The position numbers were made by a program, and so were the translations under genes. Of a stretch of 64,000 nucleotides of DNA, positions 1-6,224 are shown in pieces. Numbering within the stretch: position 1 is the first letter of the stretch; the number at the start of each line of letters is the position of its first letter. Origin of the DNA: Streptomyces armeniacus (GTDB lineage Bacteria; Actinomycetota; Actinomycetes; Streptomycetales; Streptomycetaceae); contig NZ_CP031320.1 in the NCBI RefSeq assembly GCF_003355155.1, positions 916,369 through 980,368 on the forward strand, in the 5' to 3' direction. The notes beneath the pieces were generated by a model. That model was not told the origin of the DNA, ran no database searches, and was given only the letters and a program-made list of their open reading frames with translations.

Positions 1-1
1 C

Positions 2-616
2 GCACCCGTCACCGTCTACCGTCTCGGCGAGATGATGCCCGCCGCCGACAACGGCCTGCCCAACCCGAAGGCGCTGACGCACCTGCTGCTGTCCTCGTTC
101 GTACGGCTCGGCGTACGCCCCGACGTGCCCATGCACTCGGACTGGACGCCGGTGGACGAGACGGCGGCACGCCTCGTCGCCGGGCTCGGAGAGCCGCCGA
201 CCGGCGCCGTCTACCACGTCTTCCGGCCCGGCAGCGTCGACTTCGCGGACGTCGACCTGGGCGGCGGCCCTCGCCGCGTGCCCAGCGACGACTTCCTGGC
301 CGCGCTCCGGCACGGCGCCGACAGCGACACCGACCCCTCGGCCGCCGTACTGCAGGCCCTGCTGGCCGCGCTGCCCGCCACCGGGCCCGGCGGCACCCCC
401 GACCTGCGGCGGCTGCTGGCCGACAATCCGGCGCTGTTCACGCGCCGTTGCTGCGCGGCGCTCGACACGCGGCACGGCGTACGCGAGAGACCCCTGGCGG
501 CGGCCCTGGCCGCGTACCGGGGGACACTCACCGGCAGCACATCCCGTACGGCCCGTGCCGCCCGTACGGAGCGCACCACCCGCACACCACCCCGCGACCC
601 CGCACACCGCAACTGA
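2..616 (+). CDS. thioester reductase (NAD(P)-binding SDR type), C-terminal part
   Basis: The gene enters from the left edge; 204 residues are visible and the start is missing. The visible part begins with a segment containing VYRLGEM, then NPKALTHLLLSSFVRLGV and DWTPVDETAARLV. This matches the end of the extended-SDR thioester reductase domain (RxG strand, helix, then the DWTPVD strand) that releases chains from NRPSs or carrier proteins as aldehydes or alcohols. After it comes a roughly 60-residue tail rich in Ala, Arg and Thr. Whether this is a stand-alone enzyme or the last domain of a large NRPS cannot be seen. It lies 24 bp before an aldo/keto reductase, in an apparent operon with a sulfotransferase and a capsid-like protein, so a role in natural-product assembly is inferred. 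Confidence 0.75.
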   Translation, partial: APVTVYRLGEMMPAADNGLPNPKALTHLLLSSFVRLGVRPDVPMHSDWTPVDETAARLVAGLGEPPTGAVYHVFRPGSVDFADVDLGGGPRRVPSDDFLAALRHGADSDTDPSAAVLQALLAALPATGPGGTPDLRRLLADNPALFTRRCCAALDTRHGVRERPLAAALAAYRGTLTGSTSRTARAARTERTTRTPPRDPAHRN

Positions 617-640: not shown

Positions 641-1624
641 GTGCACTACCGAACGATGGGCCGGCTCGGCTGGCAGGTCAGCGAGATCGGCTACGGCATG
701 TGGGGCATCGGCGGCGGACCCGGCGGCTTCACCGGCTGGGACTACGGCACCGCCCCCGAATGCCTGGACCTTGCCGTCGAGGAGGGCTGCACGTTCTTCG
801 ACACCGCCTGGGTCTACGGCCGCGGCGTCAGCGAACGCATGCTCGGCGACCTCCTCCGGCGCCACCCCGGCAAGCGGCTCCGCGTCGCCACCAAGGTGCC
901 GCCGCTGAACCGCGAGTGGCCCCCCGGCCCGAACGACACCCTCGACGACGTCTACCCGCCCGGCCACATACGGGAGTACGTCCAGCGCAGCCTGGAGAAC
1001 CTCGGAGTGGAACGGATGGACCTGCTCCAGTTCCATGTGTGGGAGGACCGCTGGGCCGACGACCCGCGCTGGCAGCGCGCCGTCGAGGACCTCAAATCCG
1101 ACGGGATCATCGACGGCTTCGGCATCAGCGTCAACCGCTGGGAGCCCGCCAACTGCCTGCGCGCCCTCGACACCGGCCTCGTCGACGTCGTCCAGGTCAT
1201 CTACAACATCTTCGACCAGGCCCCCGAGGACGAGCTGTTCGAACGGGCCCGGCAGGACGACATCGCCATCATCGCCCGCGTCCCCTTCGACGAGGGCGGC
1301 CTCACCGGCAAGCTCACCCGCGACACCGTCTTCCCCGAAGACGACTGGCGCGCCGTCTACTTCGGCCCCGAGAACCTCGGCCCCACCGTCGACCGCGCCG
1401 AGGCCCTGCGGAAGGCGCTCCCCGAGGAGCTGTCCCTGCCCGAGGCGTCGCTGCGGTTCATCCTCCACCACCCCGCCGTGTCCACCGTGATCCCCGGCAT
1501 GCGCAGGCCCGAGCACGTACGCGCCAACCTCGCCGTGTCCGACGGGCGGCCGCTCGACCCGGACCTGCTCCGCGAGCTGCGCGTACACCGCTGGGACCGC
1601 CGGCCCACGGCCTGGTCGATGTGA
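641..1624 (+). CDS. aldo/keto reductase family oxidoreductase
   Basis: 327-aa single-domain TIM-barrel NAD(P)H oxidoreductase of usual family length. The aldo/keto reductase tetrad is visible: Asp54 and Tyr59 in FFDTAWVYG, Lys85 in VATKVPP and His132 in LLQFHVWED. The C-terminal cofactor segment STVIPGMRRPEHVRAN is typical. The GTG start at 641 is preceded by a purine-rich ribosome site (ggaaagacgaggaa). It is the second gene of the left-edge operon, 10 bp before the sulfotransferase. It might reduce or epimerise a carbonyl made by the upstream reductase; that is inference and the substrate is unknown. Confidence 0.9.
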   Translation: MHYRTMGRLGWQVSEIGYGMWGIGGGPGGFTGWDYGTAPECLDLAVEEGCTFFDTAWVYGRGVSERMLGDLLRRHPGKRLRVATKVPPLNREWPPGPNDTLDDVYPPGHIREYVQRSLENLGVERMDLLQFHVWEDRWADDPRWQRAVEDLKSDGIIDGFGISVNRWEPANCLRALDTGLVDVVQVIYNIFDQAPEDELFERARQDDIAIIARVPFDEGGLTGKLTRDTVFPEDDWRAVYFGPENLGPTVDRAEALRKALPEELSLPEASLRFILHHPAVSTVIPGMRRPEHVRANLAVSDGRPLDPDLLRELRVHRWDRRPTAWSM

Positions 1625-1634
1625 CGGGGCCGCA

Positions 1635-2354
1635 GTGACCGTCATCGCCATGTGGGCGCACCCGCGCTCGGTCTCGACCGCCTTCCTGCGGATGATGATC
1701 GAGCGCGGGGACATCACGGTCGTCCACGAGCCGCTGGTGCTGCTCACCGACCACGGCGAGGTCACCGTGCCGGGTGCGGACGGAGGCACCGCCACCGTCC
1801 GCACCCCCGGCGCGCTCCTCGCCCACCTCGCCGAACTCGGCACCGCCGGGCCGGTGTTCTTCAAGGACACCCTCGAGTACCACTACACGCACCTCTTCGA
1901 GCACCCGGAGCAGATCGCGGGCTTCACGCACACCTTCATCGTCCGCGACCCCGCCCGCGCCATCGCCTCCCACCACGCGGTGAAGCCCGGGATGGAGTGC
2001 CGCGAGGCGGGCTACGAGCACCAGTGGGCGCTGTACGAACTCGCCTGGCGCGCCACGGGCGTACGCCCCCTCGTCCTCGCCGCGGAACGGCTGCTCGCCG
2101 ACCCCGCCGGCCAGGTCGGGACGTACTGCGCGCGGGTCGGCCTCCCGTACCTCCCGGACGCCCTCAGCTGGCAGCCGGGGGAGCGGCCCGAGTGGCGCAC
2201 GAACCGGCCCTGGCACCTGGACGCCAGCGCCAGCTCGGCGTTCCACGCGCCGGAGCGCGAGTACGAGGTGACCGTCCACAACGACGAGCGGCTGCGCCGC
2301 ATCTACGAGCACCACCTGCCGTACTACGAGCGGCTGGTGGAGCACGCCATCTGA
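1635..2354 (+). CDS. sulfotransferase family protein
   Basis: 239 aa. The N-terminal loop HPRSVSTAF (residues 9-17) sits where cytosolic PAPS sulfotransferases bind the 5'-phosphosulfate, and FIVRDPARAIAS (Arg104, Ser112) matches the 3'-phosphate-binding strand and helix. It resembles the short bacterial group sometimes annotated 'sulfotransferase-like', so sulfuryl transfer from PAPS is likely but not certain. The GTG start lies 10 bp after the aldo/keto reductase, which supports co-transcription. Sulfotransferases are, from memory, among the genes reported next to Family 3 encapsulins, and the next gene is a capsid-like protein. Confidence 0.8.
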   Translation: MTVIAMWAHPRSVSTAFLRMMIERGDITVVHEPLVLLTDHGEVTVPGADGGTATVRTPGALLAHLAELGTAGPVFFKDTLEYHYTHLFEHPEQIAGFTHTFIVRDPARAIASHHAVKPGMECREAGYEHQWALYELAWRATGVRPLVLAAERLLADPAGQVGTYCARVGLPYLPDALSWQPGERPEWRTNRPWHLDASASSAFHAPEREYEVTVHNDERLRRIYEHHLPYYERLVEHAI

Positions 2355-2396: not shown

Positions 2397-3260
2397 ATGA
2401 CCGCCACCGCCACCGGCACCGCCGCTGGAACCGGCACCACAACCGGCACCGGAACCGTTCCCACCCAGGGCGAACGCTTCGCCGCGGCCTTCCGGGAGGA
2501 CCCGGAGAAGGCCGAGGTGCACTTCGACTTCACGCTCACCGACGCCTTCCAGGCGGGCAAGGACCGGCCGCGGCTGACCGCACGCAACCTGTTCAAGAAG
2601 CGGCTCGCCGAGGGCGACACCGTGCACGGCTGGTCGGAGACCCGTCCGCCCGGCTCCTCCGGCCTCCCCGCCTCCGGCCTGCGCGAGGACGCGTACCGCT
2701 TCGGCACGGCCGCCCACCACGTACGGCCCATCACCGCCTGGGTGCAGATACCCGCTGAACTCGCCGGCCACGAGGACGCCCTGGCCGCCTTCATCGACCA
2801 CCGCCTGATGGTCCGCCTCGGCACCGCCGAGAACCGCGCCCTGACCCACGACGTGACCGGCCACCCGGACGTGGCGCGGCTCCCGTACACCGGCGGCTCG
2901 TACGTCGAGGGGGTGCTGGCCGCGTTCGACGAGATCGAGCAGTCCGGCGGCACGGGCCACGCGATGATGGTCAACCCCCGCGACTACTACCGCGAACTGG
3001 TCGGCGCGGGCAGCCTGCTGGGCGACCTCGCCCGCGAGCAGGTGATGATCTGCCGCCACCGCCAGGTGGCACCCGGCTGCGCGCTGGTCGGCGACTTCGC
3101 GATGGCGGCCCGCCTGCTGGACGGCGCGCACTCGGTCATCCGCGTCGCCGAGCCCCCGCCGGGCACGTTCGACACCCCGGGCACGGCGGTCTCCGCGACG
3201 GTCCACGAGTCGGTCGCGGTCCACCTTCCGACCCACTTCTTCCACGTGGTGCCGGCCTGA
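2397..3260 (+). CDS. HK97-fold capsid-like shell protein, candidate Family 3 (natural product) encapsulin
   Basis: 287 aa, the usual size of an encapsulin protomer. Residues 1-23 are a low-complexity Thr/Gly/Ala tail. Residues 40-95 hold a basic, proline-rich stretch that could correspond to the N-arm and E-loop. From residue 112 the pattern follows HK97-type major capsid proteins: ITAWVQIPAEL, then AFIDHRLMVRLGTAENRAL (spine-helix region), MVNPRDYYRELV (190s), a hydrophobic strand, CALVGDFAMAARLLDG (229-243), VIRVAEP, and a C-terminal ESVAVHLPTHFF strand. HK97 gp5, as I recall it, has the same order (AHWIQAS..., YINNRLMYGL, VLNPRDW, a VGGFDMA-like strand, ERLALAH). It sits 42 bp after the sulfotransferase gene with a gggag ribosome site. 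No portal, protease or terminase is nearby, so a co-opted shell fits better than a phage remnant. A cargo enzyme is not identified. Confidence 0.75.
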   Translation: MTATATGTAAGTGTTTGTGTVPTQGERFAAAFREDPEKAEVHFDFTLTDAFQAGKDRPRLTARNLFKKRLAEGDTVHGWSETRPPGSSGLPASGLREDAYRFGTAAHHVRPITAWVQIPAELAGHEDALAAFIDHRLMVRLGTAENRALTHDVTGHPDVARLPYTGGSYVEGVLAAFDEIEQSGGTGHAMMVNPRDYYRELVGAGSLLGDLAREQVMICRHRQVAPGCALVGDFAMAARLLDGAHSVIRVAEPPPGTFDTPGTAVSATVHESVAVHLPTHFFHVVPA

Positions 3261-3424: not shown

Positions 3425-3655
3425 TTGGAGCGGGACCGGCGGTGGCTGCGCTGCGCGGACGGCGCCGCGCTCAGCTCGGTGACGGTGGCCCCCGCCGGAC
3501 ATACCGTCACGCCCCTGCGCCCCCTGGACCTGCGCGCGCCGCGCCACCCGGACCACGGCACACAGGGCCTGCCGGTCAACCGCACCGCCGCGCAGGCCCG
3601 CGTCTCCGCCACTGCCGTACGCGACTGGCGGCTCGACGTGACCGGGCCGCGCCCG
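3425..3655 (+). pseudogene. fragment of a molybdopterin oxidoreductase gene (inverted partial copy)
   Basis: In this frame the plus strand encodes a stretch ending TPLRPLDL, HPDHGTQGLPVNRT, ARVSATAVRDWRLDVTGPRP. This is nearly the same as part of the minus-strand molybdoenzyme gene beside it. The fragment has neither the membrane domain nor the catalytic domain, and after 3655 the frame runs into antisense sequence. It begins at a TTG with no convincing ribosome site. It is best read as a non-functional remnant of a paralogue or an inverted duplicate, not as a gene. Confidence 0.75.
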
Positions 3656-4010
3656 CGCGGTCCAGGAGGTCCCGTACGCGGACGCCTTCCCAGCGCGCCG
3701 ACGCGCTCCACCCCTCGACGCACGCGATCGGCAACTCCTCCGTGTGCTGCGGCAGTCGGGCCAGCTCGGGAAGCGCCAGCGCGTACGGGCGCGGCCCGGT
3801 CACGTCGAGCCGCCAGTCGCGTACGGCAGTGGCGGAGACGCGGGCCTGCGCGGCGGTGCGGTTGACCGGCAGGCCCTGTGTGCCGTGGTCCGGGTGGCGC
3901 GGCGCGAGCAGGTCCAGGGGGCGCAGGGGCGTGAAGGTCTGTCCGGCGGTGACCACCGTCACCGCGCCGACTGCGGCGCCGACCCCGAGGAGCAGCGACC
4001 GCCGGTCCCG
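3431..4010. repeat. large imperfect inverted repeat: arms 3431-3655 and 3786-4010, spacer 3656-3785
   Basis: The two arms align as reverse complements without a gap (coordinates sum to 7441). The innermost 121 bp (3535-3655) are identical, the next 44 bp differ at 4 positions, and the outer 60 bp (3431-3490) differ at about 11. Identity therefore falls away from the centre. The 130-bp spacer is unique molybdoenzyme coding sequence including the CVEGWS motif. The duplication truncates the minus-strand gene. Fold-back template switching, or recombination or gene conversion between inverted paralogues, could make this; an assembly artefact is less likely because the arms are not identical. Confidence 0.85.
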
Positions 4011-4661
4011 CGCGTCGGACTCGTCCCTCGGGTCCGTCGGGTCCGTCGCGTCCTTCGTGTTCGTCGCGTCCTTCGTGTTCGCCCCGTCCTTCCGCATGTC
4101 CGGCGGGCGTTCCCGCCAGTGCGCGGCGATCAGCGGCGCCTTGACCGCCAGATGCAGCAGCAGCGCACCCATCAGCACCCAGGCCAGCGCCCAGTGCACC
4201 TGCCGGAAGGAGAACGGCCACGGATACCACTGCGCGGTGTTCAGCAGCCCCAGGAACAGCTGCAGCAGTCCGGAGGACACCAGCAGCGCCACCGACAGCC
4301 GCTCCAGTGCGTGCCGTACCCCGCGCACCGGCGGCGTCACGAACAGCCGCGGATACACCGTCCAGAGCTTGGCCAGCAGCAGCGGCACCGCCGCGATGCC
4401 GCTGGCCACGTGCAGCCCCTGGCTGAACCGGTAGCCCCACACCGGCCGGGTCGGCAGCCGGTCCGCGAGGACGCCCGGCGGCTCCTGCAGGACGTGGCTG
4501 ACCACCCCGGTGACGAAGCACACGAGCACCGCGGCGCCCAGCCAGCGGCCGACGGCCGTGGCCGTACGGGGGTCGTGCAGCCGTCCGCGGAACCGGGGCG
4601 GCAGCACCCCGCGGAGCCGGGGCGGCACCTCGGGGAGCCGGGGCGGTGAGAGGCGTTTCAT
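3661..4661 (-). pseudogene. membrane-anchored molybdopterin-dependent oxidoreductase (sulfite-oxidase family), 3'-truncated
   Basis: From ATG 4661 the protein has a 4-helix, cytochrome-b-like membrane domain (about residues 30-190; helices at AAVLVCFVTGVV, VASGIAAVPLLLAKLW, VALLVSSGLLQLFLGLL, ALAWVLMGALLLHL). A charged linker with Lys-Asp-Ala-Thr repeats follows, then a transmembrane segment, then the start of a sulfite-oxidase-type Mo domain including IACVEGWSASARWEGV, whose Cys would be the Mo ligand. Sequence homology stops at VRVRDLLD. The frame then runs into the inverted repeat and ends at 3576. Family members continue for another hundred or more residues of Mo-binding and dimerisation domain, so this copy is broken. 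The last codons before the break (DRAGA) can also be read from the repeat arm, suggesting a junction at microhomology. Confidence 0.75.
4045..4080. repeat. two tandem 18-bp units in the molybdoenzyme linker
   Basis: The unit gtcgcgtccttcgtgttc occurs twice in tandem (4045-4062, 4063-4080), encoding repeated Asn-Thr-Lys-Asp-Ala-Thr in the linker between membrane and catalytic domains. It is a minisatellite-like expansion in a disordered region. Confidence 0.8.
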
Positions 4662-4745: not shown

Positions 4746-6224
4746 TCAGGACCGTACGGCGCCCGCGAAGCGCAGCAGGTCACCGATGGTGAACTGGCCG
4801 TACGCGTCCGACAGCGTCGGCTTCCACTGCGGGAACGCGTACCGGTACGAGGACGGGTCGGCGTCCAGGAGCCCGATGAGCACCTCCGCCACCATGCGGC
4901 TGCCGACCGGCCCGAGGTGCAGACCGCCGGAGCGGACCTCGGCCTCCTTCAGCACGTAGTACCAGAGGTAGACGGGGCCCGTGGTGCCGAGTTCCCGGTC
5001 GCTCAGCACCGCCTCCCCGGTCTTGCGCGCGACGTCCTGGCCGGACGGCAGCCCGAGGGTCTCGCTGCGCAGCAGGTTGCGCACGACCAGTGAGGCCACC
5101 GGCCGCGCGAGCGCGCCCTCCTTCGACCCGGGGACGGCGCTCACCGGCAGGTCGAGGAGCTGGGTGTTGAGGCTCGCGATGATCCGCCGCGCGCACTGCG
5201 GCTCCGTGCCCGCGCCGACCGGGAAGAAGCGCGCCCAGTCGACGGCGTGCTCCGGCAGGACGGGCCCGCCGCGCAGGTCCGTACGCGGCATGGCGGGCGC
5301 CTCCGGGTCGTCCGGGAAGATCTTCCCGACGAACGTGTCGTTGACGCGGTAGTCGGAACGGACCGTCGGGTGGCCGAAGCGGAACGCCGCCGCCGCGAAC
5401 TCCACCGGGATGAACGGGGAGTCGCCCGGCACGAAGAACTGCGGGCCGTTCTTCTCCACGTCCCGCACCACCTCCGGGTCGGCGACCCGCATCAGGAAGT
5501 CGTGCACCACCAGCCACTGGTAGTGCCAGCGGACGAGCCGCTGGGCGCTGGAGAACACGGTGTTGTAGTAGTTCTCCACGTCCAGCAGCTGGTCGAGGGG
5601 CACGCCCGGCTGGCTGGTGGGCGGCTCGTCCGGCGGCTTCGGCGGCAGGTGCTGCCCGTACACGTCGGTGATCCGCCCGGAGCGCAGCGCGTCGACGACC
5701 TCGTTGTGGAACTTGATCATCGCGAGGTGGAGCTGCGCCAGCAGCATGTTCTCGTCGTTGCGCGGATCGCCGATCAGCGCGACCTGCTGCGACGTACGGC
5801 CGAGGTCGACGCCGTCGCGGGACAGGGTCAGCTTCGTCTCGTGCGAGTCCGGCGCGTACAGGTGCGGGCTGACCGTCGGCCCGGAGCCGTAGACGGTGTC
5901 CATGTCCAGGCGCGGCGTACGGAAGTCGGTGAGCTCGGACGGCTCGTCGGTGCGGCCGAGCTGCGACATGACGTCGAGCGTCAGATCGTGGTCGATGAAC
6001 TGGCCGAAATAGGTGAAGCCTGCGGCGAGTTTCGGATTCTCCTGTTCCGGAGTGGTGGCGCCGCCGTCCATTGTCCCGCCGGGAAGGCCGAATTCTTTCG
6101 CCGTCTCGAGGCCGGTGGGGCGGCGTGCGGGCAGATTCGGGAACATCCGGCCGAAGCTGCCGCTGACGGTGTTTCCCGCCGCGGAGTGGAGCGCGCGGGA
6201 CGAGGAGCCGTGCAGGGAAGTCAT
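4746..6224 (-). CDS. animal-type haem peroxidase family protein
   Basis: 492 aa, peroxidase-cyclooxygenase superfamily, which oxidises halides or organic substrates with H2O2. The distal motif FTYFGQFIDHDLTLDV keeps the Gln, the Asp that can ester-link haem, and the distal His. The proximal-His motif appears as EFAAAAFRFGHPTVRSDY. The LHLAMIKFHNEVVDAL helix is also typical. There is no signal peptide; the N-terminus MTSLHGSSSRALHSAAGN precedes a proline-rich stretch, as in other bacterial members. ATG 6224 is supported by aggagg about 6 nt upstream. It is monocistronic, with a 456-bp gene-free region upstream. The physiological substrate is unknown. Confidence 0.88.
   Translation of the reverse strand: MTSLHGSSSRALHSAAGNTVSGSFGRMFPNLPARRPTGLETAKEFGLPGGTMDGGATTPEQENPKLAAGFTYFGQFIDHDLTLDVMSQLGRTDEPSELTDFRTPRLDMDTVYGSGPTVSPHLYAPDSHETKLTLSRDGVDLGRTSQQVALIGDPRNDENMLLAQLHLAMIKFHNEVVDALRSGRITDVYGQHLPPKPPDEPPTSQPGVPLDQLLDVENYYNTVFSSAQRLVRWHYQWLVVHDFLMRVADPEVVRDVEKNGPQFFVPGDSPFIPVEFAAAAFRFGHPTVRSDYRVNDTFVGKIFPDDPEAPAMPRTDLRGGPVLPEHAVDWARFFPVGAGTEPQCARRIIASLNTQLLDLPVSAVPGSKEGALARPVASLVVRNLLRSETLGLPSGQDVARKTGEAVLSDRELGTTGPVYLWYYVLKEAEVRSGGLHLGPVGSRMVAEVLIGLLDADPSSYRYAFPQWKPTLSDAYGQFTIGDLLRFAGAVRS

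Follow-up and report, generated by a model that had tools for sequence, protein, structure and literature searches.

A predicted Family 3 encapsulin gene closes a conserved Streptomyces gene cluster that carries polE and polF

Genes at the shell-gene locus

The stretch of DNA analysed (the window; 64,000 nucleotides of the Streptomyces armeniacus genome, G000:C1:916369-980368) begins inside a gene, so that the cluster described here is cut by the window start. Genes for an A-PCP-R protein, an aldo/keto reductase (AKR), a sulfotransferase and a predicted encapsulin follow one another on the plus strand with intergenic gaps of 10-42 bases (Table 1). The A-PCP-R protein has Pfam matches to AMP-binding, PP-binding and NAD_binding_4, scores 242 bits against the thioester reductase model TIGR01746 (cut-off 213), and has the motifs GGDSL and YSRSK. 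For the sulfotransferase, phmmer returned no credible solved relative; for the flavoenzyme encoded next to the A-PCP-R gene, the nearest is the D-arginine dehydrogenase DauA (241 bits), a likeness that gives no more than a hint of a basic substrate. Both the sulfotransferase and the reductase listed as neighbours in the first-pass annotation are real by Pfam, and they fit the description of Family 3 encapsulin neighbourhoods given in the survey of these proteins (PMC8346489).

Further upstream are genes for an MFS exporter and an acyl-CoA-ligase-like protein and, on the opposite strand, for a RimK-type ATP-grasp protein and a second AKR. Beyond these, again on the plus strand, lie genes encoding a GNAT/FemAB-like protein, a DUF6202 protein (PF19705, 515 bits) and a DUF6421 protein (PF19985, 53 bits). 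This last pair at first resembled the vazabitide/azinomycin ring-closing pair, and an aziridine or LysW-type route was considered; no small carrier protein was seen by eye among the small ORFs of L058:12000-13100, and a search of the PDB identified the pair instead as PolF (SaPolF, 635 bits) and PolE (SnPolE, 559 bits). The PolF of this genome is identical to the crystallised SaPolF (PDB 9j27) over 291 aligned residues (6-296 versus 2-292), and the DUF6421 protein has the PolE motif HE/DXXHX(21-23)E. As reported in 2025, PolF alone converts L-Ile and L-Val to azetidine amino acids, and PolE is an Fe/pterin-dependent desaturase that desaturates L-Ile and aids PolF (PMC12614342); the adjacent DUF6421 and DUF6202 proteins are shared with the polyoxin pathway described there. 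This azetidine half is located outside the window and was missing from the cluster as first drawn.

Several features flank these genes. Upstream of polE, a region that appears by eye to be conservon-like, with sensor-like, roadblock-like and GTPase-like proteins, is followed by a P450 gene; of the polF loci compared, L074 alone has matches to the P450 and the next ORF, and phmmer found no credible solved relative for the ORF at L058:6266-7348. Downstream of the shell gene, an inverted repeat with arms that are 93% complementary and 130 nt apart lies where a molybdopterin-oxidoreductase-like gene with a partial Oxidored_molyb match ends, and resembles an inverted duplication by which this gene was cut.

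Table 1. Features at and around the shell gene, with one related locus. Coordinates without a prefix are positions in the window.
Feature	Coordinates	Strand	Remarks
DAO-type flavoenzyme	L059:2520-3776		5' of A-PCP-R
A-PCP-R, whole gene	L059:3788-6985	+	start 2581 bases before the window
A-PCP-R protein (adenylation, carrier, thioester-reductase domains), C-terminal part in window	1..616	+	1065 aa in full
Aldo/keto reductase (AKR)	641..1624	+	327 aa; PF00248, 166 bits
Sulfotransferase (Sulfotransfer_5)	1635..2354	+	239 aa; PF19798, 52 bits, cut-off 23; HPRSVST loop
Encapsulin Family 3 shell protein (predicted)	2397..3260	+	287 aa; final gene of the cluster
Inverted repeat, 226 nt	3430-3655 / 3786-4011
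Molybdopterin-oxidoreductase-like gene	3576-4661	-
Animal haem peroxidase match	4746-6224	-	492 aa; PF03098; outside the conserved cluster
Conservon-like region, then P450	L058:1695-6173		5' of polE
ORF	L058:6266-7348		upstream of polE
APS kinase (Ramlibacter)	L043:13040-13552	+	PF01583, 228 bits; adjoins flavoenzyme gene

Family and predicted fold of the shell protein

From its sequence the product of the final gene had been proposed to be a Family 3 (natural product) encapsulin with the HK97 capsid fold. In a profile search it scored 318.2 bits against NF041188 (encap_f3), an equivalog model with a curated cut-off of 180, which places the protein in Family 3. No Pfam model matched it at E values up to 1, neither the Family 1 model Linocin_M18 (PF04454) nor Phage_capsid (PF05065), with which some Family 3 members are annotated (PMC8346489). 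Structure prediction, undertaken for the monomer only, and structure comparison gave an HK97 capsid fold, with every ten-residue block from residue 21 onward averaging a pLDDT of at least 72. The predicted model contains strands (67-82) assigned to the E-loop, a helix (126-154) assigned as the spine helix, and an A-domain. Its nearest folds are the HK97 and D3 proheads; solved encapsulin structures are farther away than these phage proheads. Family 1 and Family 2 encapsulins count among the closest known systems. Neither a non-HK97 fold nor a best match to an unrelated enzyme family emerged, an outcome that favours an encapsulin, and at the level of sequence and model the gene encodes a Family 3 encapsulin with a predicted HK97 fold.

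Comparison with six distinct relatives gave dN/dS values of 0.20-0.43, consistent with purifying selection, and 68 of the 287 residues are invariant in 23 rows; a split encapsulin beside N runs (L080) was excluded from the counts of invariant residues and from the tree described below. Among the ten neighbours scanned, none has a PHROG annotated head or packaging, in agreement with the earlier statement that phage structural and packaging genes are absent. A capsid-derived protein that is now fixed in a biosynthetic cluster is the best explanation for these observations.

Family 3 was named, and 132 members counted, by Andreas and Giessen in 2021 (PMC8346489). According to the survey, genes often found nearby are those for sulfotransferases, SDRs, PKSs, NRPSs and AmCPs; it proposes that the shells trap reactive aldehydes or ketones, and states that no Family 3 structure was known and that the role of the shell in the one studied cluster was unknown. 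The protein described here resembles the family as set out in that survey in its NF041188 membership, its HK97 fold, a cluster with a sulfotransferase, a reductase and an NRPS-type gene, and its host, Streptomyces being among the main hosts; it differs in that the survey names SDRs whereas the tailoring reductase here is an AKR. The words azetidine, aziridine and thioester have no matches in the main text of PMC8346489.

Conservation of the cassette and linkage with polE and polF

Scanning 84,980 species genomes for relatives that share one of six peptide patterns, which does not give a complete count, identified 26 encoding loci. The AKR, sulfotransferase and encapsulin genes occur in this order in 17, from Streptomyces, Catellatospora, Nonomuraea, Micromonospora, Allonocardiopsis, Ramlibacter, Paracidovorax and Trinickia, and an A-PCP-R gene is at least partly present upstream in 16 of the 17, the exception (L044) being on a contig that starts too late. 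The cassette order A-PCP-R, AKR, sulfotransferase, encapsulin spans Streptomyces, other actinobacteria and beta-proteobacteria. The remaining nine loci, all myxobacterial, have no match to the AKR or sulfotransferase of the window, and the five myxobacterial encapsulins aligned are 42-45% identical to the window protein. A Family 3 encapsulin is also present in the chloromyxamide cluster of Myxococcus (PMC8346489), which we compared by description only, and related myxobacterial loci have adenylating enzymes nearby.

The AKR, with 70-91% identity to 23 relatives, is the most conserved cassette protein, and the encapsulin is the less conserved of the two in all 23 comparisons; positions invariant in 23 rows number 149 of 327 in the AKR and 52 of 239 in the sulfotransferase. 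The ten-letter code of the A-domain, as placed by the GrsA positions, reads DSWD[VI]G[GA]IGK in all 21 proteins of the 23 rows that could be read, with or without PolF (L048 and L080 gave no code; L044 has no A-PCP-R row as its contig starts too late). As the code is common to cassettes regardless of PolF, the substrate of the cassette seems to be a single, fixed one, with the azetidine part as an add-on of the Streptomyces clade. The flavoenzyme gene of the Ramlibacter cassette is adjoined by an APS kinase gene, which fits a need for PAPS in sulfation.

Additional relatives were observed. The genome of Nonomuraea sediminis (G400) has three (L076, L077 and L078): two lie in cassettes, of which one has ATP-grasp and ligase genes but lacks PolF and the other precedes ligase-like and MFS-like genes, and the third is in a locus without a match to the cassette. 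Streptomyces also has a second clade of NF041188 proteins (L002-L010; genomes without PolF), of which the three members aligned share 25-28% identity with the window protein. In 25 of the 392 Streptomyces genomes sampled the best NF041188 match is weaker (20-58 bits) and falls in an open frame of 407-584 codons; these are probably prophage capsids. No plasmid-borne relative was found in 72,556 records.

In 10 distinct genomes, that of the window included, a single contig encodes PolE, PolF and the encapsulin in an unchanged order (the other loci being L068-L071, L073-L075, L082 and L083). Genomes shared between searches were counted once, as were the duplicates G214 and G397 (S. radiopugnans) and G391 and G407 (S. 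pini), and L074 repeats L032. The polE/polF pair lies about 12-16 kb upstream of the shell gene (12.3-15.8 kb for PolF), and the order conserved in Streptomyces is polE, polF, GNAT, AKR (the second AKR, unmatched in both L068 and L079), ATP-grasp, acyl-CoA ligase, MFS exporter, DAO-type flavoenzyme, A-PCP-R, AKR, sulfotransferase, encapsulin. Across 392 Streptomyces genomes, including this one, an encapsulin over the cut-off is present in 16, PolF in 9 and both in 6 (Fisher p 1.3e-7, uncorrected for kinship). By BLAST score against the window protein the 16 encapsulins separate into 7 near (347-578 bits) and 9 far (74-84 bits); PolF is present in 6 of the 7 near-group genomes and in none of the far group. 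All six PolF proteins that score above 450 bits are in encapsulin genomes, the other three scoring 324-370 bits. At three PolF loci without an encapsulin (G005, G019 and G073), the AKR, sulfotransferase, ATP-grasp and encapsulin were unmatched in the stretches fetched, in which there were only weak A-domain, ligase or MFS matches.

There are exceptions to the linkage. In Streptomyces sp. CNH099 each half has its own contig: L079 carries polE-polF-GNAT-ATP-grasp-ligase-MFS together with 147 residues that match the flavoenzyme, and L039 carries a flavoenzyme gene and those for A-PCP-R, AKR, sulfotransferase and encapsulin. The PolF gene of Streptomyces sp. DH37 lies where a contig ends (L084), as would be expected from a break in the assembly. 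The genome G105 has the cassette and no PolF half. A further genome without PolF, G145, has an encapsulin gene split in two beside N runs and below the cut-off (L080, G145:C1:299044-299813), in which gene damage and an assembly fault cannot be told apart. A tree of encapsulins was constructed from 26 rows, with three of the nine myxobacterial loci included and L078, L080 and L002-L010 left out. Its 13 Streptomyces rows form one clade (support 100/100), of which 11 are labelled PolF-linked (10 seen on one contig and L035 by a contig-end argument), one has PolF elsewhere and one is without PolF; the simplest reading is that the azetidine half was gained once in this clade, followed by one split and one loss.

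The polE/polF half and the cassette might alternatively be two adjacent clusters with two products, as the separate CNH099 contigs and the PolF-free cassette of G105 would allow, and PolF is present in only 8 of the 21 named genomes with an encapsulin relative, the 8 Streptomyces. This is unlikely: the order is constant in 10 genomes, where ATP-grasp, ligase and MFS genes connect the two parts, PolF occurs in 6 of 7 genus genomes of the near encapsulin clade and in 0 of 9 of the far one, and the separated CNH099 copy retains the flavoenzyme match at the junction. The gene order from polE to the encapsulin is conserved in Streptomyces, probably as a single cluster; as PolF is missing from the 13 named genomes of other genera, from G105 and from G145, azetidine formation is a partner within the Streptomyces clade and not the general reason for the shell.

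A possible shell-enclosed pathway

The conserved cassette suggests that part of a small-molecule pathway runs inside a protein shell. Reductase domains of NRPSs free their product as an aldehyde and, by this domain logic, the A-PCP-R protein would load a single amino acid that does not differ between cassettes and release it as the aldehyde. The AKR would then reduce the amino aldehyde to an alcohol, the sulfotransferase would sulfate this alcohol, the ligases would couple the sulfated product to the azetidine amino acid, and the MFS protein would export the finished product. At least one aldehyde-handling enzyme, with the AKR as the likeliest, would be packed in the shell, which would allow the reactive intermediate, an amino aldehyde or a sulfate ester, to be consumed before it escapes. 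We consider it probable that the shell encloses the aldehyde-handling and sulfation steps in the synthesis of an azetidine-bearing metabolite, with its assembly, cargo and product all inferred.

The AKR is a tentative first choice as cargo because it is more conserved than the encapsulin and has the most invariant positions. Active-site constraint alone could explain this conservation, and the lower conservation of the encapsulin would also fit a looser role of the shell. As neither the AKR nor the sulfotransferase has a conserved tail or tag in 24 rows each (23 relatives and the window), the assignment is a guess. The tails of the A-PCP-R proteins vary among rows in a search for terminal extensions, and no cargo tag was found at the termini of the A-PCP-R protein or flavoenzyme, or in the PCP-R linker. 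An (M)ERDAxLPADL-like stretch that recurs in this linker in many rows was judged not to be a tag, being what we take to be the usual start of a reductase domain.

A true encapsulin that does not house the aldehyde chemistry might instead store, mature or carry the finished metabolite, as a capsid does its payload. An MFS gene directly 3' of the shell gene in the Catellatospora locus (L081), similar-looking ORFs, by eye, after the shell gene in L041, L042 and L046, and the lack of an enzyme with a visible tag are all compatible with such a role. It is nevertheless a decidedly poor prospect, as the encapsulin is fixed behind the AKR and sulfotransferase in 17 of the 26 loci and small polar products would presumably escape through capsid pores unless bound. 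Doubtful to a greater degree is the proposal that the protein has lost shell formation and is a small oligomer, for example a scaffold that clusters the cassette enzymes. The fold was predicted for a monomer, and Family 4 encapsulins are published as reduced to the A-domain (PMC8346489), but the E-loop, spine helix and A-domain are all present and well predicted in this protein, and almost a quarter of its residues are invariant. A remnant or live phage capsid gene present by chance is rejected: the nearest folds are phage proheads and one phage record, a major capsid protein, matches (21.5% identity, E 4e-3), but this is the only match in 50,697 phage records, and the equivalog score, the ten neighbours scanned, the purifying selection and a cluster order kept from actinobacteria to beta-proteobacteria all argue otherwise.

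Within the preferred reading of an enclosed aldehyde and sulfation route, a more speculative extension, which we regard as a long shot, is that the cassette directs the synthesis of strained nitrogen rings, from amino aldehyde to amino alcohol to amino alkyl sulfate to aziridine, joined in Streptomyces to the PolF-made azetidine. Sulfate would leave as the amine closes the aziridine, in an enzymatic counterpart of the Wenker synthesis, with the encapsulin confining the electrophile, and the product would be a warhead with two rings, assembled around a protein nanocompartment. Vazabitide is said to provide a precedent for the sulfate elimination.

The encapsulin itself belongs to a known family; its pathway context is newly recognised, and the link of polE and polF to a Family 3 encapsulin cluster in Streptomyces is new here. 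Encapsulins are not mentioned in PMC12614342 or in the review PMC13108848, and a literature search of limited coverage found no publication that joins an encapsulin with azetidine or DUF6202. Judged by the sequence identity, the authors of the SaPolF study, which we take to be Gong et al. 2025, presumably worked with this or a near-identical strain; as SaPolF is the PolF of this genome, the cluster may already appear in a publication. The smallest cassettes seem to have about six genes (flavoenzyme, A-PCP-R, AKR, sulfotransferase, encapsulin and MFS), few enough to be moved with and without the shell gene. The encapsulin would, as the data suggest, mark one clade of polF clusters, and the link gives a handle on Family 3 function, with solved PolE and PolF structures, published assays and a known azetidine building block (PMC12614342).
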